In this document: piece by piece, positions 498 to 14,203 of the stretch | Layout of the letters: the number at the start of each line of letters is the position of its first letter | How positions within the stretch are numbered: the first letter of the stretch is position 1 | Source: Cellvibrionales bacterium UBA4495 | Lineage (GTDB): Bacteria; Pseudomonadota; Gammaproteobacteria; Pseudomonadales; Porticoccaceae | Length of the DNA: 14,413 bases | NCBI GenBank assembly: GCA_002388905.1 | Contig: DGNJ01000105.1 | Span: 20,118 to 34,530, forward strand | Direction of reading: 5' to 3' | Notes under the pieces: generated by a model | Told to the model about the DNA's origin: nothing | Databases searched by the model: none | What the model saw: the letters and a program-made list of their open reading frames with translations, nothing else | Made by a program: the position numbers and the translations under genes

Positions 498-519
498 CCG
501 GAAGCCTGCCATATTCCGG
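498..519. repeat. Inverted repeat CCGGAA-N10-TTCCGG in the divergent gap
   Basis: Perfect 6-bp arms are separated by 10 bp, between the small gene and ugd. It could be an operator for a dimeric regulator of either gene. Six-base GC-rich arms can also occur by chance in DNA of this composition. Confidence 0.35.
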
Positions 520-573
520 TCATAGAGATTGCCCAGACTGTCGGCTATCCAGGGCAACTACAGGTGACAGGTT

Positions 574-1965
574 ATGCAGGTGACGGTAATGGGCAGCGGT
601 TATGTGGGACTGGTGACCAGTGTGTGTCTCGCCCATGTGGGCCACCGGGTGGCCTGTTTCGATATCGACAGTGAGCGAATCGACGGCTTGCGGCGGGGGA
701 TCTGCCCGATTTTCGAGCCGGGGCTGGAGGATTATATCGCCGGTGAACAGGAGCGTGACCGACTTCGTTTTACGGCCGATCCGTCCGGGGTGCTGGCGGA
801 TCCGGACCTGATCATTATCGCCGTCGGTACGCCCCAGGGCCAGAATGGTGACGCGGACACGCGTCAGGTGCTGGCGGCGGCAAAAATGATCGGCGAGCAC
901 ATGATGCAGGAGACCGTGGTGGTCACCAAGTCAACGGTGCCCGTGGGCACGTCCGGGAGGGTGCGGACCGCCATCTTGGAAGCCCTGTCCCGGCGCGGGC
1001 TGGTGATTCCCTTTTCAGTGGCCTCGAATCCGGAATTCCTCAAGGAAGGCGCAGCCATCGAGGATTTTATGAAACCGGACCGAATCATCCTGGGTACCGA
1101 CAGCCTCCGGGTGGAACAACTGATGCGCCAGTTGTACGCTCCCTTCAACCGCCAGCGGGAGCGGCTCATGGTCATGGATGTACGATCCGCGGAGCTCACC
1201 AAGTACGCGGCCAACGCCATGCTCGCCACCAAGATCAGCTTTATCAATGAAATGGCCAATATCGCCGAACGTGTCGGTGCCGACATCGAACATGTCCGGC
1301 GCGGGATCGGGGCCGACCCCCGCATTGGCCATCACTTTATCTACCCGGGGTGCGGATTTGGCGGCTCCTGTTTTCCCAAGGACGTGACGGCCCTGGAATC
1401 TACCGCCATGGAAGCGCAGTATCGCCCCCAACTGCTGCGCGCCGTGCGCGAAGTCAATGAGCGCCAGAAGCAGGGCCTGTTCGATAAGATTTACCGCTAT
1501 TTCGGCGGTGATCTGCGCGGCCGGGTCATTGCGCTTTGGGGGCTCGCTTTCAAACCGGGTACCGACGACATGCGCGAGGCACCCAGCCGGTCCCTCATGG
1601 AAGCCCTCTGGGATATGGGCGGCGAGGTGCGTGCCTACGACCCCCAGGCCGCGACGGAATGCCGGCGCCTGTACGGCGATCGTCCCGGTCTCGAGCTGGT
1701 GGCTTCGCGGGAGGCCGCCCTAAAGGGCGCGGATGCCCTGGCCATCTGTACCGAGTGGAAAAGTTTCTGGGCGCCGGACTTTGCTGCCATTCGGGAGGCG
1801 TTGGCCACCCCCGTGATTTTTGACGGCCGCAACCTCTTCGATCCGGCCGTTGTTGCGGGATTCGGCCTGGACTATATCGGTATGGGCCGGGCCGGCTGTG
1901 CGACCCCGGATCCGTCAAGGTTGTCCGAATCCGTCGACCCGGCGCGGACACTGCTGGCTGTCTGA
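574..1965 (+). CDS. ugd: UDP-glucose 6-dehydrogenase
   Basis: This cytoplasmic enzyme oxidises UDP-glucose twice with NAD+ to UDP-glucuronate, a donor or precursor for capsule, exopolysaccharide, LPS sugars and glucuronosyl glycolipids. The 463-residue protein has the full family layout: the NAD-binding loop GSGYVG (7-12), STVPVGT (120-126), NPEFLKEG (152-159), the central helix with Lys210 and Asn214, and the catalytic cysteine Cys266 in GFGGSCFPKD. The C-terminal UDP-binding domain has GLAFKPGTDD (323-332). About 20 residues follow the usual end near IGMGR (435-439), slightly longer than common. AGGTGA lies six bases before the ATG. The gene stands alone on its strand. Its stop is five bases from the stop of the convergent mgtC-like gene, leaving no room for a terminator in the gap. 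No glycan cluster is visible beside it, so the use of UDP-glucuronate must be inferred. Confidence 0.96.
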   Translation: MQVTVMGSGYVGLVTSVCLAHVGHRVACFDIDSERIDGLRRGICPIFEPGLEDYIAGEQERDRLRFTADPSGVLADPDLIIIAVGTPQGQNGDADTRQVLAAAKMIGEHMMQETVVVTKSTVPVGTSGRVRTAILEALSRRGLVIPFSVASNPEFLKEGAAIEDFMKPDRIILGTDSLRVEQLMRQLYAPFNRQRERLMVMDVRSAELTKYAANAMLATKISFINEMANIAERVGADIEHVRRGIGADPRIGHHFIYPGCGFGGSCFPKDVTALESTAMEAQYRPQLLRAVREVNERQKQGLFDKIYRYFGGDLRGRVIALWGLAFKPGTDDMREAPSRSLMEALWDMGGEVRAYDPQAATECRRLYGDRPGLELVASREAALKGADALAICTEWKSFWAPDFAAIREALATPVIFDGRNLFDPAVVAGFGLDYIGMGRAGCATPDPSRLSESVDPARTLLAV

Positions 1966-1970
1966 TCCTG

Positions 1971-2396
1971 TCAGTCCGTATCGCGGTTCTTGAAAGGCCG
2001 GGAAAACTGGAAGCTCAGAAAATTGATCAGGCTCAGGACCAGGGCGATTTCGTAACGCTGGTAGGCGACGGCGATACCGATAGCGCCGGTATTCCAGATA
2101 CTTGCCGCGGTGGCGGTACCCGTTACCTGGTCCCGGTTCTTGAGAATGGCGCCACCGCCGATAAAGCCGATGCCGGTGATGATCCCGTACATGACCCGGG
2201 CTTCCGCCGGCGATCCCTCATAAACCTGCATGCCGATCAGCATATAGCCGCAGGAGGCCAGGGACACCAGGGGAAAGGTGCGCAGGCCGGCACCGCGACT
2301 GCGGGCCTCGCGGTCCCACGCCACCGGCAGGGCCAGCGCAAAGGCGATACCCAGCTGGTAGAGGTGTATCCAGATCTGCTGCCAGTCCAGGTTCAT
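1971..2396 (-). CDS. Small MgtC/SapB-family inner-membrane protein
   Basis: MgtC/SapB proteins are hydrophobic inner-membrane proteins. Salmonella MgtC helps cells cope with low Mg2+ and affects the F-type ATPase and phosphate metabolism. The 141-residue protein has about four to five membrane segments (roughly 12-26, 41-57, 69-83, 100-111, 116-130). It carries the family signatures: a charged DREARSRGAGLRT block (28-40), GIGFIGGGAIL (75-85) and GTATAASIWNTGAIGIA (93-109). It lacks the soluble C-terminal domain of the approximately 230-residue Salmonella protein, so it is the short SapB-like form and its function may differ. The start is 13 bp after the stop of the LpxR-family gene, which suggests one transcript. 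The ribosome site is weak: AAGG lies 11 bases before the ATG. The family call is secure; the physiological role is not. Confidence 0.9.
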   Translation of the reverse strand: MNLDWQQIWIHLYQLGIAFALALPVAWDREARSRGAGLRTFPLVSLASCGYMLIGMQVYEGSPAEARVMYGIITGIGFIGGGAILKNRDQVTGTATAASIWNTGAIGIAVAYQRYEIALVLSLINFLSFQFSRPFKNRDTD

Positions 2397-2409: not shown

Positions 2410-3417
2410 TTAGAAGCGGTAGGAAACCGCGATCGAGCCGAATTCGTCGGGGTCGTCCTGCTTTTCGAATTCCCGGCTCTGAAAGATATTGGTGATGGAA
2501 ATGCGCCAGCCGTCCCAGCCCATCACCGCTCCGGCCTGGACGCTGCCCACCCATTCCCGGGGCTCGACGCTGTGGCTGTCGCCGTCGCGATTGCCGTTCA
2601 GGAAAATGTTGTAGTCCACGTACTGGCCCCGCGCACCGGCGAAAACATACCAGTAGAACGGTTGCGGGGACCTGAAATAGTGGCTGCCCACCGTGCGGGG
2701 CCGGATCAGGGGTGGCCCGTAGTCGGCGTCGAGGCCGTCCCCGATCCGCAGGGTCAGCCCCGCCTGGGCGCGGCGCTGTGAACTGCCCAGGGTGAAACCC
2801 GTGGCGGGGAGCATGTCCAGGTGGTCGTCGACAAGGGTGATGGTCCACTCCCGCTGGTAGCGCAGGTCGACGGTCACTTCATCGTCCAGCTGGTTGTCCC
2901 AGCCTTTCGGCGTATCCGAATCGAGTACTTTATGGATCGCCTTCTGGGTATTCTCCGCGCCGGAGTCCGGGCCCACCAGGCCCACCACCAACTCCACCGT
3001 ATCCACATGGCGATCGCCGGATTCCCTGGATTCGCTGACCAGGCCCAGGCTTGTATAGAGCCAGCCGGCGTAGGGTCGGTCGTCGGCAATCACCGTTTCC
3101 GCCTGCAGGTTGTCGGGGGTGTACATCTGCTGGCCCAGGGACCAGGAAAAGCGGGTTTCGTCGTCTTTGTCGTGGAAGGGCAACAGCGCCGCGGCCCGTT
3201 CGAACCAGCCCGGCATATAGGTGTCGCTCACATAGGCGATCTCGGTACCGTGGGTGTAGTGTTCGTCGCCACCGCTGGCAAACAGGTCGTTCTCCAGAGC
3301 CAGGGTCAGGGTGCCCTTGCCGTCATCGGCAAGCGTGGCAAGAGACATGGCCAAGGCGCCGGCCAGCACGGCCGGTTGCAAAGTCTGCCTTCGGGATCCC
3401 CGCTTGTCCTTGAACAT
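2410..3417 (-). CDS. LpxR-family (DUF2219) outer-membrane lipid A deacylase
   Basis: LpxR of Salmonella is a 12-stranded outer-membrane barrel that removes the 3'-acyloxyacyl chain of lipid A in a Ca2+-dependent reaction. The 335-residue protein has a signal peptide (1-30, ending SLATLA before DD) and ends in the aromatic residue typical of barrels (VSYRF). Family landmarks are present: ENDLF (42-46, equivalent to the Asn-Asp pair of LpxR), YTHGTEIAY (54-62, with Thr55 at the active-site Thr position) and DRPYAGWLYT (113-122). His162 in QKAIHKVL followed by GWDNQL corresponds to the catalytic His region. The residue matches come from my own alignment by eye. A start-proximal TATTAT (3444-3439, minus) might be its -10, but I see no good -35. 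It lies 111 bp downstream of the PlcP-like gene and just ahead of the MgtC-like gene. True substrate specificity is unproven, since many family members are uncharacterised. Confidence 0.88.
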   Translation of the reverse strand: MFKDKRGSRRQTLQPAVLAGALAMSLATLADDGKGTLTLALENDLFASGGDEHYTHGTEIAYVSDTYMPGWFERAAALLPFHDKDDETRFSWSLGQQMYTPDNLQAETVIADDRPYAGWLYTSLGLVSESRESGDRHVDTVELVVGLVGPDSGAENTQKAIHKVLDSDTPKGWDNQLDDEVTVDLRYQREWTITLVDDHLDMLPATGFTLGSSQRRAQAGLTLRIGDGLDADYGPPLIRPRTVGSHYFRSPQPFYWYVFAGARGQYVDYNIFLNGNRDGDSHSVEPREWVGSVQAGAVMGWDGWRISITNIFQSREFEKQDDPDEFGSIAVSYRF

Positions 3418-3528: not shown

Positions 3529-4383
3529 TCAGCTTATGGTTTTTGTCGAGTGCCGGGGCGGCAGACGCAGAATTTCGCCGGCGGTCTCGTCGTTGGCGGC
3601 ACCCCGCTCGCACTTGAAAGCGCCCTGGAGATCGCCCCAGTGGAGCAGTTCCAGGTGCCCGTCCCGGTGTTCCACCAGGGCGGTGCAGCTCTCGACCCAG
3701 TCGCCGTCGTTGCAATAGAGCAGGCCGTTTATAGTGCGAATCTCGGGCTGGTGGATGTGGCCGCAGACTATACCGTCGAAGCCCCGCCGCTGGGCTTCCG
3801 CGGCGGCGGCGACCTCGAAGGCCTCGATGGCCGCCCGGGCGTTGCCGACCCGGTTCTTGATGTAGTAGGCCAGTGACCAGTAGGGGAGTCCCATCCGGGC
3901 CCTGATGCGATTGTGCCATCGGTGGAGAAAGAGCAGAAAGTCGTAACTCAGGTCACCGGCGATACGGTGCAGCAGACTGCAGCGCACGGCACTGTCGAAC
4001 TGATCCCCGTGCACCATGAGCAGCCGTTTGCCGCTGGCGGTTCGGTGTGTGGCCTCGTTGACGATGTCGATATTGAGAAGCTGCCTGCCCGCCAGGTCGC
4101 GGGCCTGCTCATCGTGATTGCCGGGAATGTAGACGATCCTGACACCGCTGTCGGCCAGGTCCACCAGCTTGCGAAGGACCGCGTGGTGGCTGGCCGGCCA
4201 GTTGAACTGCCGGCGCAGGGCCCAGCAATCCACCACGTCTCCCACCAGGTATATGACCCGGGTCCTGACGCTGTTCAGGAAGTCCAGCAGGAATTCCGCC
4301 CGGCAACCCCGGTAGCCCAGGTGCAGATCGGAAAGCCAGGCGGCGTTGACGGAGACCGTTTCAGGGGGAATCGTAGTGGCCAT
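3529..4383 (-). CDS. PlcP-like metallophosphoesterase (probable phospholipase C for lipid remodelling)
   Basis: This is a calcineurin-type metallophosphoesterase of 284 residues. Metal and catalytic motifs are DLH (19-21), GDVVD (48-52), GNHDE (88-92), HGD (125-127) and GHIH (208-211). The approximately 240-residue LpxH normally has GNRD. This protein has GNHDE plus an LPYWS segment (166-170) and GDWVESCTALVEH (227-239) near the end, as I recall for the PlcP group. PlcP of rhizobia and marine bacteria releases diacylglycerol from phospholipids during phosphate starvation. Automatic annotation often calls such proteins UDP-2,3-diacylglucosamine diphosphatase. Start choice: AAGGAG lies eight bases before the ATG at 4383; an ATG two codons earlier is too close to it. 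Its start overlaps the end of the glycosyltransferase gene by 23 bp, so translation is probably coupled. The PlcP role is inference from motifs and neighbours. Confidence 0.82.
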   Translation of the reverse strand: MATTIPPETVSVNAAWLSDLHLGYRGCRAEFLLDFLNSVRTRVIYLVGDVVDCWALRRQFNWPASHHAVLRKLVDLADSGVRIVYIPGNHDEQARDLAGRQLLNIDIVNEATHRTASGKRLLMVHGDQFDSAVRCSLLHRIAGDLSYDFLLFLHRWHNRIRARMGLPYWSLAYYIKNRVGNARAAIEAFEVAAAAEAQRRGFDGIVCGHIHQPEIRTINGLLYCNDGDWVESCTALVEHRDGHLELLHWGDLQGAFKCERGAANDETAGEILRLPPRHSTKTIS

Positions 4384-5491
4384 GGGCATGACTCCTTGCG
4401 TTGTCATCGGTGAGTTCCGGTGAAACGTCTCTGGCTTCCGTGGAGACTGTCGCGGGAGTGATCTCCGGCAGGATGGCCCGGTCCCAGAGGGAGCGGGAGA
4501 GTTCGCCGATATCCGCCACCGCGCCGGCTGCCAGCCATTCGCAGATGCCCCTGGCGACATTGGGATAGATCACCCGCGCGCCTTCGGCGCTGTCCAGCCA
4601 GCGCGAGACCCTGGCGGCGTCCAGGCTGTGCATGGTGTGGCCGTAGCCGAGCAGGTCCAGGGCCAGGGTGTTGGAATATTGTTCGGGTTGGCCGTGTACC
4701 GGCTTGACCAGGAGTTTCCGTCCAAGCTGGAGTACCTCACTGGCCAGTTCGAACCCGGCGTTGCAGATCACGCCCTCGCAGTGGTGCAACTCATCCTGGA
4801 ATGCCTCGCGCTGGGGCTTGTGCCAGGTCATGTGGCCATCCGGGACACCGGGCGCATCCGGGTGGTAAATGCTGAACCGGTATTCCGGGAAGGCATTGAG
4901 CAGGAAGCTGATGGCGGCGGTGGACTCGAAAGGGAGGTAGACAATGATAAGACCCTTTTCCAGCCGGCTGTTGCGACCGCCCACGGGGGCGATCGGGGGC
5001 AGTATGGGCGCGTTAAAGTGGTGCCAGTGCACACCGAGCTTGCGCCGGGCCGGAGCGAACTGTCTCATGATTGTCCGTTGTGCCGCGCTCCCGCGGTACT
5101 GGGGAATCGGGTATTCAAAGGCGTACTGGTGACCGAGCCCGATGGAGGGAATGCCTTTCAGCCGCGCGGCCCATGCAGTGATGGGCTCGTAATCGGTGAT
5201 AACCAGGTCGTAGCGCTCCAGTTCGAGTCGCCTGATGTCCCGGAGAAAAGCCAGGGGCCTGGCTTTGACCATTGTTGCCAGGGGGCGTATCCGACCATCG
5301 CTAACGGCGAAGGTGAGCCCGTCCCGGTGTCTGAAATCGCCAAAGCCGCCCATATCGAAAAGCTGGTCCCGGGGCCGGCCGGAAACCAGAAAATCCACCG
5401 CCAGTCCTGCTTTGTCAAATTCGCTGGCCATGGCCCTGGCCCGGGTGATATGACCATTGCCGGTACCCTGAATGCCGTAGAGGATGCGCAT
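4361..5491 (-). CDS. MJ1255/VC2487-type glycosyltransferase (GT-B, MurG/MGDG-synthase-like)
   Basis: The 376-residue protein has a two-domain GT-B fold signature. It opens with MRILYGIQGTGNGHITRA, the glycine-rich loop typical of MurG-like and MJ1255-like transferases, then VITDYEP (97-103). The C-terminal nucleotide-sugar site is NAGFELASEVL (244-254) followed by LVKPVHGQPEQ (261-271). Such enzymes transfer a sugar from a nucleotide donor to a lipid acceptor at the inner face of the membrane. The acceptor here is not proven. Sitting between a PAP2 phosphatase and a PlcP-like phospholipase, it plausibly uses diacylglycerol to make a glycolipid. The start ATG overlaps the PAP2 stop by one base (TGATG), and the end overlaps the PlcP-like gene by 23 bp. 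No membrane segment is obvious, so it is probably peripheral. The fold is secure; the substrate is inferred. Confidence 0.83.
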   Translation of the reverse strand: MRILYGIQGTGNGHITRARAMASEFDKAGLAVDFLVSGRPRDQLFDMGGFGDFRHRDGLTFAVSDGRIRPLATMVKARPLAFLRDIRRLELERYDLVITDYEPITAWAARLKGIPSIGLGHQYAFEYPIPQYRGSAAQRTIMRQFAPARRKLGVHWHHFNAPILPPIAPVGGRNSRLEKGLIIVYLPFESTAAISFLLNAFPEYRFSIYHPDAPGVPDGHMTWHKPQREAFQDELHHCEGVICNAGFELASEVLQLGRKLLVKPVHGQPEQYSNTLALDLLGYGHTMHSLDAARVSRWLDSAEGARVIYPNVARGICEWLAAGAVADIGELSRSLWDRAILPEITPATVSTEARDVSPELTDDNARSHAHGHYDSP

Positions 5492-6030
5492 CAGGTTATC
5501 CACACGGCCGCGCACCAGGCCAGGGTCGTCCCCATCAGGGCGCCGGCCAGGGTGTCGGTGGGAAAGTGGACTCCCAGGGTGACCCGGGAGCCGGCAACCA
5601 GCACCGCCCAGGTAAAGCCCAGTGGCGCGGTGCCCGGATAGAAAAGCGCCAGGGCGGTGGCGGTCAGGAAGGCGCCGGAGGTGTGCCCCGAGGGGAAGCT
5701 GAACTGGTCCGACGGGATAATAAAGCTGTTGTAACCGGGTAACACCGAGCTTGGCCGATTGCGTCTCAGGCCGTTTTTCAGCGTCCAGTAGAGTGGGCGC
5801 TCCAGGCCGAAGGCCAGGGCCAGTGTCGCCATGAAGGCAGCGCCCCTTTCCCCGCCAAGCCACCAGGCCAACAGGGCCAGGGCGGGATACCCGTAACCGT
5901 CGGCGGTGCGGGAAACGCTCCGGGCGATGCGCGCCAGCACGGCCAGGTGCTTGCGCTCCATGCACCAGCCAAACACCAGGAGATCGTACCGGTGAAGCAG
6001 TTGCAGGGTTTTTTGCAGTGTCTTTTCCAT
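5491..6030 (-). CDS. PAP2-family membrane phosphatase
   Basis: PAP2 enzymes remove phosphate from lipid phosphates such as phosphatidate, PGP or undecaprenyl pyrophosphate, usually at the periplasmic face of the inner membrane. The 179-residue protein has all three motifs: K85-x6-RP (85-93), PSGH (113-116) and SR-x5-H-x3-D (148-159). His116 and His155 are the expected catalytic pair. Several hydrophobic segments (about 46-60, 66-78, 118-131, 137-148, 160-178) fit an integral membrane protein. It is the first gene of the trio and its stop overlaps the glycosyltransferase start. In this context it may supply diacylglycerol from phosphatidate; a house-keeping lipid phosphatase role is the alternative. 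The ribosome site is weak (TAGG about ten bases upstream). The leader from the predicted PhoB-type promoter would be only about 22 nt. Confidence 0.9.
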   Translation of the reverse strand: MEKTLQKTLQLLHRYDLLVFGWCMERKHLAVLARIARSVSRTADGYGYPALALLAWWLGGERGAAFMATLALAFGLERPLYWTLKNGLRRNRPSSVLPGYNSFIIPSDQFSFPSGHTSGAFLTATALALFYPGTAPLGFTWAVLVAGSRVTLGVHFPTDTLAGALMGTTLAWCAAVWIT

Positions 6031-6058
6031 GCAGTCAGCCTAGATCGGCTCTGTGACA

Positions 6059-6092
6059 CTTATATAACGGAACTGTTAAATTTCGATGACAG
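6059..6092 (-). promoter_or_regulatory. Predicted PhoB box and -10 element of the PAP2-GT-PlcP operon
   Basis: On the minus strand CTGTCAT (6092-6086), a four-base spacer CGAA and ATTTAAC (6081-6075) form a PhoB-type direct repeat with the proper 11-bp period. The first half is a perfect consensus half-site. The whole resembles the E. coli phoE box as I recall it (CTGTAATATATCTTTAAC). Exactly 10 nt downstream is TATAAG (6064-6059), a 5-of-6 match to the -10 consensus. The bases 17 bp upstream of it (ATCGAA) are not a -35 hexamer, as expected for PhoB-activated promoters. Transcription would begin near 6052. A caveat is that a longer inverted repeat overlaps the same bases. Confidence 0.6.
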
Positions 6093-6097
6093 TTCCG
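6068..6097. repeat. 9-bp inverted repeat overlapping the PhoB box
   Basis: CGGAACTGT (6068-6076) and ACAGTTCCG (6089-6097) are perfect reverse complements separated by 12 bp. Such a dyad could bind a dimeric regulator, or form part of the control of both divergent transcription units. The CTGT-N12-ACAG spacing does not fit the LexA box, which has N8. Confidence 0.6.
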
Positions 6098-11122: not shown

Positions 11123-12331
11123 ATGCGAACGCCGTTTATTGCCGTCATTCTCTTTGCGTCACTTTTTGGCCAGGGCCCGGCCCGGGCCGACGAGGCATCG
11201 TTCCGTGCCTGCCTGGAGGATATCCAGAAGCAGGCCAGCCGGCGGGGTATGTCGAACCGCGTGGTCAAGGAGGTGGTTCCGGCGCTGCGCTACCAGCCCC
11301 GGGTCATCGAACTGGACCGGCGCCAGCCGGAGTTTACCCAGACTTTTGCCGAGTACCTGAAAGCCCGGGTGACGCCCTTTCGCATTGCCCGCGGACGGGT
11401 GCTGTACCGGGAACTGCGACCCTTTCTGGACCAGGTGTCCTCCCAATACGGGGTGGACGGCAGGTACCTGGTGGCGCTGTGGGGCATGGAGACCAATTTC
11501 GGCGGCTATACCGGCAAAATGCCGGTCCTGGATTCCCTGGCGACCCTCGCCTGCGACCGCCGGCGGAGCAATTATTTCACCGGCGAACTGCTCACCGCCC
11601 TGAGCCTGGTTGACCGGGATTCCCTGTCGCCGCCGGCCATGAAGGGATCATGGGCCGGGGCCATGGGCCACACTCAGTTCATGCCCTCCACCTACAGGCG
11701 TTACGCGGTGGACGGCGACGGGGATGGCCGCGTCGATCTCTGGTCCAGCGAGCGGGATGCCCTGGCCTCCGCCGCCAATTTCCTCGATGGCCTGGGCTGG
11801 CGCACCGGCGAGACCTGGGGTTACGAAGTGTCGCTGCCGGAAGATTTTTCCTATGACCGGACCGGTCCGGGCAACCAGCGGCCAGTGTCCGCCTGGCGCG
11901 ATACCGGTGTGCGTCTCGCCGACGGTCGCCCGTTGCCGGATGGTAAGCCGGACGGTAAAAAGGAGGCTGCCATCCTGGTGCCATCCGGCCACGCGGGGCC
12001 GGCGTTCCTGGTATTTTCGAATTTCGACATCATCCGGCGCTGGAACAATTCCCAGTGGTATGCCCTGTCCGTTGGCCACCTGGCGGATCGCATCGCCGGC
12101 GGCGGCCCCTTGCGTCGGGCGCCCCCCCAGACCCCCGCCCTGAGTCGTGACGAAGTGACGGAACTCCAGCGTCGCCTCAACGAACGCGGCTTCGATGCCG
12201 GTTCCCCCGACGGCATTATCGGCCGGCAGACGCGCAATGCACTCCAGGGCTACCAGCGCAGTCGCGGGCTGGTAGCCGACGGCTTCCCGGATGTCGAAAC
12301 CCTGGCCGCCCTGGGAATCCGCGAGCGTTAG
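11123..12331 (+). CDS. mltB: MltB-like lytic murein transglycosylase (GH103) with peptidoglycan-binding domain
   Basis: This periplasmic enzyme cleaves the MurNAc-GlcNAc bond of peptidoglycan, forming 1,6-anhydroMurNAc ends. The 402-residue protein has a Sec signal peptide (1-22, PARA before DE) and no lipobox, so it should be soluble, unlike the lipoprotein MltB of E. coli. The GH103 domain covers about 26-320. Catalytic Glu123 lies in WGMETNFGG (120-128), followed by the substrate-site motif GSWAGAMGHTQFMPSTY (175-191). A Ca-binding-like loop DGDGDGRVD (197-205) recalls the EF-hand of Slt35. A PG_binding_1 domain (about 341-398) ends the protein. The 88-bp gap upstream holds only a weak -10-like TACCAT (11084-11089) and no clear Shine-Dalgarno sequence. 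The bax-like gene follows after 16 bp, so this is probably the first gene of a three-gene operon. Confidence 0.94.
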   Translation: MRTPFIAVILFASLFGQGPARADEASFRACLEDIQKQASRRGMSNRVVKEVVPALRYQPRVIELDRRQPEFTQTFAEYLKARVTPFRIARGRVLYRELRPFLDQVSSQYGVDGRYLVALWGMETNFGGYTGKMPVLDSLATLACDRRRSNYFTGELLTALSLVDRDSLSPPAMKGSWAGAMGHTQFMPSTYRRYAVDGDGDGRVDLWSSERDALASAANFLDGLGWRTGETWGYEVSLPEDFSYDRTGPGNQRPVSAWRDTGVRLADGRPLPDGKPDGKKEAAILVPSGHAGPAFLVFSNFDIIRRWNNSQWYALSVGHLADRIAGGGPLRRAPPQTPALSRDEVTELQRRLNERGFDAGSPDGIIGRQTRNALQGYQRSRGLVADGFPDVETLAALGIRER

Positions 12332-12347
12332 TGTGGGAGGTAGCCCA

Positions 12348-13115
12348 ATGAGTCGACGCCCCCAACAGCGTTGGGCCGTCCTGTTGCTTTTGGCCCTGGT
12401 GGCGCTGGCCTGGCTATTGCGCGTGGACCGCGGAGGCCAGTCCCTGCCGGATATGACAGCTTATACGGTTGTCGAGGAGCGCAAGCAGGCCTTTTTTGAC
12501 TACCTGGAGCCCATTGTCGAGCGTGAAAATGCGCGCATCGCCGAAGATCGTCGCCGGTTGCTGGACATTGCCGCCCGCCACCAGGCCAGCGGTGGCCTGT
12601 GCTGGTGGGATCGGCGGTGGCTGCGCAATCTGGCCGCTGAGTACCGCGTCCAGTGGCAACCGGATAAGCGGACCGAGGCTATCGAGTCCCTGAAAACGCG
12701 GGTCGACGCAGTTCCCGCCCCCCTCGCCCTGGTGCAGGCCGCCAAGGAGTCCGGCTGGGGCCGGTCACGGTACGCGGTGGCGGCCAACAACCTGTTCGGG
12801 CAATGGTGTTATGAGCGCGGCTGCGGCCTCGTTCCCAAACGCCGGCCGCGGGGAGCCAGCCATGAAGTGCGAATTTTTGATTCAGTGGCCGACGCCGTCG
12901 CCGCCTATGTCAACAACCTCAACAGCCATCGCAGTTATCGCGGCCTGCGCCGGATTCGCAGCGAGCTGCGCGAGCGCGGGAAAGAGCCCACGGCGCTCGC
13001 CCTTGCCGAAGGCCTGATGTTTTACTCGGAGCGGCGCGGTGCCTATGTCGCCGAGGTGCGCTCGATGATCCGCCAGTATCACCGCTTCCGGAACCGGTCG
13101 GAGGATGAATCGTGA
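12348..13115 (+). CDS. bax: Bax-like membrane-anchored glucosaminidase (GH73)
   Basis: Bax proteins carry a GH73 (glucosaminidase/FlgJ-type) domain expected to cleave the GlcNAc-MurNAc bond. The 255-residue protein has one N-terminal membrane anchor (about 8-25). The proposed catalytic Glu134 lies in QAAKESGWGRSRYA (130-143), followed by NNLFGQWCY (147-155). Two cysteines (154 and 159) flank a CYERGC segment that may form a disulfide in the periplasm. Start choice: the ATG at 12348 has GGGAGGT six bases upstream; earlier in-frame ATGs lie inside mltB. It starts 16 bp after mltB and overlaps the deacetylase start by four bases, so all three are probably made together. The enzymatic role is a family inference, since Bax itself is little studied. 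Confidence 0.9.
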   Translation: MSRRPQQRWAVLLLLALVALAWLLRVDRGGQSLPDMTAYTVVEERKQAFFDYLEPIVERENARIAEDRRRLLDIAARHQASGGLCWWDRRWLRNLAAEYRVQWQPDKRTEAIESLKTRVDAVPAPLALVQAAKESGWGRSRYAVAANNLFGQWCYERGCGLVPKRRPRGASHEVRIFDSVADAVAAYVNNLNSHRSYRGLRRIRSELRERGKEPTALALAEGLMFYSERRGAYVAEVRSMIRQYHRFRNRSEDES

Positions 13116-14203
13116 AAGCCTGTCTGCTCGGACTCCTGCTCTGTTTCGCCCCCTGGCCCCCTGCCGGTGCCGCCGAGCACGGTGTCATTCTGCTTTATCA
13201 CCACGTCAGCGGGGATACGCCGGCCAGTACCAGTGTGACCCCCGCCACCTTCGAAGAGCACCTTCGCTACCTGGAAAAAAACGACTTCCGGGTGTGGCGG
13301 CCGAGCCGATTGCTGGCCAGCCTCGTCGCCGGTAAACCGGTTCCCGACAATACCGTCGCCATTACTTTCGATGATGCCTATGAATCCATCTATACCGAGG
13401 CGTTTCCTCGGCTGCGCCGGCGCGGCTGGCCGTTTGCGGTTTTCGTCAATACCGAGGCGGTGGATCGCGGCTACAGCAATGCCCTCGACTGGGAGCAACT
13501 GCGGGAAATGGCCGCTGCGGGCGTTGAAATAGGCAACCACAGCCACAGCCATGATCACCTGGTCAGGCGGCGGGAAGGGGAGTCGACCGGAGAATGGGCG
13601 AAGCGGATCAGTGCCGATATCGAGCGGGCCCGGTCCCGTTTGCAGGAAGAACTGGCCGCTGTCACAGGCGGAGCGCTACCAGAACTGTTCGCCTACCCCT
13701 ATGGCGAGTATGACGAGATGCTGCGAGCCCTGGTCGACAGGCTCGGCTATGTGGGGCTCGCCCAGCAGTCAGGTGCCGTCGGGCCCGGGGTGGACACCCT
13801 GGCGGTACCCCGCTTTCCCCTGGGCGGAACGTTTGCCGACCTGGAACGCTTCGCCACCAGCGTCCATACCCGGCCGCTGCCCCTGCTCGAGGTGGACGGG
13901 GGCGAGCACGTACGCCGGGCCGGCGAGGCTGCCGGCCGGTTGCGGTTGACCCTGACGGTCCCCGAAGGCGCGGGCTTCAATCCCGATCAACTGGCCTGCT
14001 TCAGTGCCCGGGGCGAGCGCCTCGAAGTGCAGCGGGAGGGTGACAGCCCGGTGCGGGTGGTCGTGGATCTGCCCGAATTCTGGTCGGCGGGTCGGGCCAA
14101 GGTGAATTGCACCGCCCCGGTTGCCGGCGCGCCGGGGGAGTATTACTGGTATTCACACCAGTGGCTGGTCCGGGAAGCGGACGGCAGTTGGTACCGGGAA
14201 TAA
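13112..14203 (+). CDS. Secreted CE4 polysaccharide deacetylase
   Basis: CE4 enzymes remove N- or O-acetyl groups from peptidoglycan, chitin-like or poly-GlcNAc chains using a divalent metal. The 363-residue protein has a signal peptide (1-20/21, PAGAA). An LLYHHVS opening (27-33) resembles the N-terminal deacetylase domain of PgaB. The catalytic/metal motif TFDD (85-88) gives base Asp87 and metal ligand Asp88. HSHSH (143-147) gives metal ligands His143 and His147, and AYPYGEYDE (194-202) is the third motif. Residues about 260-363 form an extra, beta-rich looking segment with no family I recognise, ending in an aromatic stretch (YYWYSHQW). The start is GTG at 13112, overlapping the bax stop (GTGA), with GGAGGAT just upstream. 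It may act on peptidoglycan, given its neighbours; an exopolysaccharide is the alternative. Confidence 0.9.
   Translation: MKACLLGLLLCFAPWPPAGAAEHGVILLYHHVSGDTPASTSVTPATFEEHLRYLEKNDFRVWRPSRLLASLVAGKPVPDNTVAITFDDAYESIYTEAFPRLRRRGWPFAVFVNTEAVDRGYSNALDWEQLREMAAAGVEIGNHSHSHDHLVRRREGESTGEWAKRISADIERARSRLQEELAAVTGGALPELFAYPYGEYDEMLRALVDRLGYVGLAQQSGAVGPGVDTLAVPRFPLGGTFADLERFATSVHTRPLPLLEVDGGEHVRRAGEAAGRLRLTLTVPEGAGFNPDQLACFSARGERLEVQREGDSPVRVVVDLPEFWSAGRAKVNCTAPVAGAPGEYYWYSHQWLVREADGSWYRE

Follow-up and report, generated by a model that had tools for sequence, protein, structure and literature searches.

A candidate lipid-remodelling operon of a PAP2 phosphatase, an MJ1255-type glycosyltransferase and PlcP under predicted PhoB control in a Porticoccaceae genome

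Gene organization of the operon

We analysed a 14,413-nucleotide stretch (the window) of the genome of Cellvibrionales bacterium UBA4495, positions 20118-34530 of contig DGNJ01000105.1 in a 3.38-Mb assembly with a completeness of 92.8%. On its minus strand, genes encoding a PAP2-family lipid phosphatase, a glycosyltransferase (GT) of the MJ1255/VC2487 family and a PlcP-type phosphoesterase follow one another, and each touches or overlaps the next (Table 1). The TGA stop codon of the PAP2 gene (5493-5491) and the ATG of the GT gene have base 5491 in common (TGATG), a 1-bp overlap. The phosphoesterase ATG at 4383 and the GT stop at 4361 define a 23-bp overlap, which becomes 29 bp if the in-frame ATG at 4389 is taken as the start. 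The conserved motifs of the encoded proteins are intact. A first-pass annotation of this DNA had described three touching or overlapping genes, noting all motifs and giving overlap lengths of 1 and 23 bp; these coordinates and motifs were confirmed. Named best protein matches come mostly from Porticoccaceae.

Table 1. Features of the window discussed in this work (coordinates are those of the window)
Feature	Position	Strand	Basis or remark
PAP2-family lipid phosphatase, 179 amino acids (aa)	5491..6030	-	PF01569 74.8 bits; motifs intact
MJ1255/VC2487-family glycosyltransferase, 376 aa, GT-B fold	4361..5491	-	TIGR00661 221.4 bits; predicted model, Foldseek
PlcP-type phosphoesterase, 284 aa	3529..4383	-	identity to PlcP references; separate LpxH in genome
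Predicted tandem PhoB box, four in-phase 11-bp repeats CTGTCATCGAA ATTTAACAGTT CCGTTATATAA GTGTCACAGAG	6049..6092	-	-62..-19 relative to PAP2 ATG
LpxR-type lipid A 3'-O-deacylase, 3' of plcP	2410-3417	-	PF09982 329.9 bits
MgtC-family protein, same strand as plcP	1971-2396	-	between LpxR and UDP-glucose dehydrogenase
UDP-glucose 6-dehydrogenase, own transcription unit	574..1965	+	TIGR03026 444.8 bits
Pho-box-like site CTGCCATATTCCGGTCAT upstream of UDP-glucose dehydrogenase	506..523	+	12/14, p 0.001 (dinucleotide shuffles)

Identity of the three encoded proteins

The phosphoesterase matches PF12850/PF00149 and carries all the metallophosphoesterase motifs (DLH, GDVVD, GNHD, HGD and GHIH). It is 46.6% identical to the Pseudomonas aeruginosa PlcP (253 aa; L084), whose gene adjoins an Agt-type GT4 gene, and 40.0% identical to a Sinorhizobium meliloti homologue (280 aa; L089), whose gene has those of a homoserine-lactone synthase and a LuxR-type regulator in its vicinity; between the two references the identity is likewise 46.6%. 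We take the S. meliloti protein to be the characterised PlcP, and the P. aeruginosa protein is presumably PA3219. An operon containing PA3219 has been described (PMC8528852). The P. aeruginosa plcP-agt pair used here lies on a plasmid record (NZ_CP137508.1), and a plcP match is present in two further such records. The assignment as LpxH was considered and rejected: the window protein scores 39.9 and 36.5 bits against the LpxH equivalog models (cut-offs 134 and 190), which the PlcP references likewise miss, whereas the true LpxH of this genome, encoded on contig 27, is above both cut-offs (303.3 and 290.4 bits). The 92.8%-complete genome yielded no second PlcP, the sole other match being the contig-27 LpxH. 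By sequence, the phosphoesterase that the first-pass annotation had called PlcP-like is PlcP, and it would be expected to act as a phospholipase C that yields diacylglycerol.

The GT exceeds the curated cut-off of TIGR00661 (195.9 bits), matches PF13528 (104.2 bits) and is the sole TIGR00661 match in the genome. Its predicted model (predicted local distance difference test, 77.5; predicted template-modelling score, 0.77) has a GT-B fold, and CalG3 and MurG (3s2u, 7d1i) were among the top Foldseek matches, with template-modelling (TM) scores near 0.5. The fold search did not discriminate the acceptor. A search of the GT sequence against solved structures returned no match at E <= 1, and BLAST at E 0.01 detected no similarity to three Agt references, the Pfam families of which are also different. 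Upstream of VC2487, the Vibrio cholerae namesake of the family, a chromatin immunoprecipitation peak of the chitin regulator ChiS has been reported (PMC11856585).

The PAP2 protein exceeds the PF01569 cut-off (27.2 bits), and its motifs KNGLRRNRP, PSGH and SRVTLGVHFPTD are all intact, corresponding to the PAP2 motifs KX6RP, PSGH and SRX5HX3D. In profile and solved-structure searches it weakly matches LpxE, PgpB and undecaprenyl-diphosphatases alike, the closest solved structure being LpxE (E 4.9e-10). A candidate substrate is phosphatidate or a similar phosphorylated lipid. The LpxE match, together with the LpxR gene downstream on the same strand, could also be accommodated by lipid A modification, in which PAP2 would be an LpxE-like 1-phosphatase, the GT would glycosylate lipid A and LpxR would remove acyl chains. 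We regard this as highly improbable. The sites of action differ, outside the inner membrane for LpxE and LpxR and inside it for MurG-like glycosyltransferases, LpxR was unmatched in the 20 regions of relatives that were scanned, and lipid A modification predicts neither linkage to plcP nor Pho control, both of which are described below.

The PAP2-GT pair is widely conserved and co-occurs with PlcP

A search with a GT alignment gave 585 confirmed stretches, and the best 80 of these are referred to below as the named loci; the operon and co-occurrence counts given here concern related sequences and do not represent independent events. The PAP2 gene lies -60 to 150 bp upstream of the GT gene in 70 of the 80 named loci and overlaps it in 34. 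The trio was rejected as a widespread unit, since plcP was found within the fetched DNA in just 10 of the 80 and is usually encoded elsewhere in the genome. In the family to which the window belongs, on the other hand, plcP adjoins the GT gene in 14 of the 21 genomes carrying the two (in G021, which is counted among the 14, ~0.5 kb separates them). Neighbourhoods of this kind, for PAP2 as for plcP, go beyond chance. The conserved trio proposed by the first-pass annotation was therefore recovered within this family, whereas more widely these comparisons indicate that the conserved unit is the PAP2-GT pair, which plcP joined in the window's family. Since the flanks of PAP2-GT vary between lineages, the pair appears to be self-standing.

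This variation also bears on the explanation that the genes serve a surface polysaccharide, with PAP2 recycling undecaprenyl diphosphate, the GT building a carrier-linked sugar and UDP-glucuronate entering the polysaccharide. A PgaB-like deacetylase encoded in the window and a weak match of PAP2 to undecaprenyl-diphosphatase models (40.9 bits, cut-off 250) would be in line with it, but no polysaccharide cluster recurs around the pair and the co-occurrence with PlcP is strong, and we consider a role in polysaccharide synthesis improbable.

Seven loci of a Nitrosomonas type (L007, L008, L009, L018, L020, L026 and L033) have a different layout, with PAP2 present at this position only in L033. A relative of diacylglycerol-kinase-domain proteins is encoded downstream of the GT in all seven, and plcP and a patatin relative upstream in six; Pfam was used to check these neighbours in L008 and L033. 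The presence of such glycerolipid genes on both sides of the GT counts in favour of a function in lipid metabolism.

Among 61 genomes of the window's family, 21 have both GT and PlcP, seven GT only, three PlcP only and 30 neither (Fisher 1.6e-7). Every sampled genome of genera g4, g5, g6, g13 and g14 has both genes (12 genomes) or neither (13), and this pattern holds even in g4, where GT and plcP are unlinked; GT-only genomes occur in g7, g11 and g12. More widely, PlcP was detected in 44 of 49 named GT genomes (drawn from 50 of the 80 named loci, L068 being left out) versus 66 of the 232 genomes in a class-wide sample (Fisher 7e-16). The class sample itself comprises seven genomes with a GT match, six of which have PlcP (Fisher 0.0024); one of the six (G092) has a weak GT match of 133.5 bits, and the seventh (G107) has a partial GT. 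In the family counts, matches to the PlcP model that did not exceed 52 bits were disregarded; among the 66 class genomes, PlcP is a short fragment in G240 and a 188.6-bit match in G089.

A tandem PhoB box is predicted upstream of the operon

The tandem box in front of the PAP2 gene agrees with the consensus at 20 of 28 positions, a score equalled by none of 2000 dinucleotide shuffles. As a single 18-bp Pho box, the best site before PAP2 reached 10/14, which is not significant (p 0.075), and a genome-wide scan for the 18-bp box was unconvincing (160 three-mismatch matches versus 119 with the pattern reversed). The sequence at 6069-6096 forms a perfect inverted repeat, GGAACTG-N14-CAGTTCC, which overlaps the first half of the tandem box and might bind a second regulator.

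We scored the tandem box in 107 of 110 operon upstream regions (those of L072, L078 and L100 were too short), with 269 regions that precede other conserved genes of these loci as controls. L120 and L122 represent parts of a single gene (G058), which is counted twice, and in L117 (G023) a TAA lies inside the GT gene. A forward score of at least 17 was obtained for 88 of the 107 regions upstream of PAP2-GT or GT operons versus four of the 269 controls, and a score of at least 18 for 71 versus none. On the reverse strand, scores of at least 17 were found for five operons and 16 controls; the latter may represent divergent neighbours that share a box. Group labels were available for 60 of the 80 named loci, and the signal was present in 31 of the 35 labelled groups, being missing in Alishewanella, Rheinheimera, Marinifaba and Gayadomonas. 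Of eight Shewanella, five have the signal upstream of PAP2-GT and three (L048, L050 and L053, including S. xiamenensis and S. decolorationis) do not. In two Nitrosomonas-type loci (L007 and L018) the GT gene is preceded by a Pho box, CTGTCATTTTTCTGTCAT, that fits the consensus at 14/14 positions.

The genome encodes its own PhoB (TIGR02154, 330.9 bits; cut-off 296.2), upstream of which the tandem-box score is 20/28; it is 24/28 upstream of a PstS-like gene, whose product scores 100.6 bits and so stays under the cut-off of 206.6. Stand-alone plcP has its own tandem box, with a score of 20-21/28, in all four regions of relatives that were read (L217, L218, L219 and L235). These data suggest that the operon is regulated by PhoB itself, and the control by phosphate starvation proposed at first pass is supported at the sequence level by a tandem box that is repeated across relatives.

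Distribution of Agt and other GT4 enzymes

We scored as true Agt only proteins with at least 259 bits, which are 42-55% identical to the reference Agt; a 180.8-bit fragment (G235) and a 174.7-bit match (G087) were not counted. No Agt was found in the 92.8%-complete genome of the window, in which the reference Agt gave only partial matches (31-38% identity, best E 1.7e-11) to three GT4 proteins. A separate plcP-agt pair, which the first-pass annotation had named as evidence that would speak against its proposal, was likewise not found in this assembly. In the window's family, none of the 21 GT+PlcP genomes has Agt and all three PlcP-only genomes have it, its gene adjoining plcP. In the wider sample, Agt occurs in five of 44 named GT+PlcP genomes versus 37 of 60 class PlcP genomes without GT (Fisher 2e-7), and neither GT nor Agt was found in 23 of the 66 class PlcP genomes.

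The GT4 protein L091 belongs to the XrtA-system family TIGR03088, with a score over the cut-off. A GT4 gene on contig 19 (L090) lies in a frame of 775 aa (L090:163-2487), the C-terminal half of which is GT4; the N-terminal half, in which Pfam recognises no domain, resembles a phosphoesterase on visual inspection, and the protein is possibly a phosphoesterase-glycosyltransferase fusion. The 213 bp that precede its first Met contain no Pho box.

Neighbouring genes and the sugar donor

The UDP-glucose dehydrogenase gene converges on the operon, and in the window it is separated from plcP by the MgtC and LpxR genes. In 12 of 17 plcP regions of relatives it adjoins plcP (in one of them, G029, it follows plcP on the same strand), and it is present in none of the three regions that have GT without plcP. 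The Pho-box-like site upstream of it scores 11-12/14 in five of nine relatives read and 8-9/14 in the other four. The dehydrogenase is a probable source of UDP-glucuronate. Its position beside plcP in relatives and the Pho-like site point to UDP-glucuronate as the likeliest donor for the GT, with UDP-glucose as the alternative, and suggest glucuronosyl-diacylglycerol as the product. This lipid is also a product of Agt (PMC4796936).

LpxR and MgtC were considered as further operon members and rejected, neither having a match in the 20 regions scanned. Upstream of PAP2, in divergent orientation, lies an RND adaptor gene. At 11123-14203, on the plus strand, genes for an MltB-type transglycosylase, a Bax-like protein and the PgaB-like polysaccharide deacetylase (13112-14203) follow in series.

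Discussion

The best reading of the locus is an operon for PlcP-mediated lipid remodelling with a non-Agt glycosyltransferase and an added PAP2 phosphatase. It is probable that this operon is regulated by PhoB and that the MJ1255-type enzyme stands in for Agt, the substrates and products of all three enzymes being predicted from sequence. Scarcity of phosphate would switch on the operon as part of the PhoB regulon and lead to remodelling of the membrane lipids. PlcP would convert old membrane phospholipids into diacylglycerol, and PAP2 would supply more of it from a phosphorylated lipid, either newly made phosphatidate or one similar to it. The MJ1255-type GT would then transfer a sugar from a UDP-sugar onto diacylglycerol to give a phosphorus-free glycolipid, doing the job of the unrelated GT4 enzyme Agt. 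PAP2 active sites are periplasmic, but diacylglycerol crosses membranes readily, so a cytosolic GT could use diacylglycerol made by PAP2.

Several observations weigh against this interpretation. The Pho signal is missing upstream of 19 of the 107 operons, three of Shewanella among them, and the tandem box lies so near the PAP2 ATG that the transcription start is hard to place: in most family loci (L093-L122) it begins 62-64 bp before the predicted ATG and leaves ~19 bp. This may reflect an almost leaderless transcript or a PAP2 start codon located further in. GT occurs without PlcP in seven of 28 family genomes and five of 49 named genomes; six of the seven family genomes have Pho scores of at least 17, which fits two supply routes for diacylglycerol. 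The substitution of the GT for Agt, as put forward in the first-pass annotation, agrees with the missing Agt in this genome and with the anti-association of the two enzymes, but true Agt is found alongside GT in Methylobacter, Methylomicrobium, Methyloglobulus, Crenothrix and Methyloversatilis (the five of 44 named genomes), and one of the six class GT+PlcP genomes (G179) also has Agt. The best NCBIfam match of the contig-19 GT4 is a glucosyl-diacylglycerol synthase (NF049988, 180.6 bits; cut-off 400), and GT4 genes related to it lie beside plcP in G274 and G092, with the MJ1255 GT elsewhere, so another diacylglycerol glycosyltransferase in the window's genome is possible. For V. cholerae at low phosphate, the lipids named in PMC12186959 are ornithine lipid, phosphatidylethanolamine, phosphatidylglycerol and cardiolipin, and the term glycolipid is not used there, which speaks mildly against generality. 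On the whole, the interpretation given at first pass is partly supported: most of it agrees with the genome evidence, and its chemistry is predicted.

The contig-19 match also lends something to a phosphate-starvation operon with another acceptor, such as phosphatidate, phosphatidylglycerol, ceramide or another lipid, in which case the contig-19 GT4 would make the glycosyl-diacylglycerol. PAP2-GT without PlcP in a quarter of the family GT genomes (7/28) would suit such an operon, as would the glycosphingolipid reported from low-phosphate Caulobacter (PMC6445935). The anti-association of GT and Agt, however, points to the same product class for both, and the contig-19 gene has no Pho box in the region searched; we consider a different acceptor unlikely.

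Returning to diacylglycerol as the acceptor, carriers of the PAP2-MJ1255 pair include Shewanella, Marinomonas, Methylococcales, Nitrosomonas and Alteromonas. With a confidence that falls just short of even, the PhoB-controlled pair could provide Gammaproteobacteria in general with a second route to phosphorus-free glycolipids, based on a new family of diacylglycerol glucuronosyl- or glucosyltransferases that replaces Agt and is fed by PAP2 and PlcP. The marine, freshwater and nitrifying carriers would give such a route a bearing on phosphorus economy. Searches for MJ1255 and TIGR00661 found no paper on this GT family, and no title or abstract opening among the open-licence papers listed describes a Pho-linked PAP2-glycosyltransferase operon, although an earlier mention elsewhere is possible.

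PlcP-Agt remodelling is known from Agrobacterium tumefaciens (Agt), SAR11, Phaeobacter MED193, P. aeruginosa (PA3219/PA3218/PA0842) and Methylosinus trichosporium OB3b, its products being monoglycosyldiacylglycerol (MGDG) and glucuronosyl-diacylglycerol (GADG) (PMC4796936, PMC8528852, PMC9239053). As in those systems, the window has PlcP and a glycosyltransferase in one operon with predicted Pho-box control; unlike them, its GT belongs to TIGR00661/PF13528 and not to the GT4 Agt enzymes, and a PAP2 gene is added. PlcP itself shares the metallophosphoesterase superfamily with LpxH, and annotation pipelines call it LpxH. The GT-B fold is common to the GT and to MurG and GT1/GT28-like enzymes, with TM-scores just near 0.5. 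For type Ia methanotrophs, the route from a plcP without adjacent agt to replacement lipids has been described as open; the same study posits an as-yet-unidentified MGDG glycosyltransferase and likens an enzyme encoded near plcP to that of Bacillus subtilis (PMC9239053). The operon described here offers a candidate enzyme family and a regulatory signature for plcP bacteria without an adjacent agt. Also comparable are the processive and 'other putative' diacylglycerol glycosyltransferases (types 3 and 5 in PMC4796936, and those of the type Ia methanotrophs in PMC9239053), which likewise are non-Agt enzymes encoded beside plcP.

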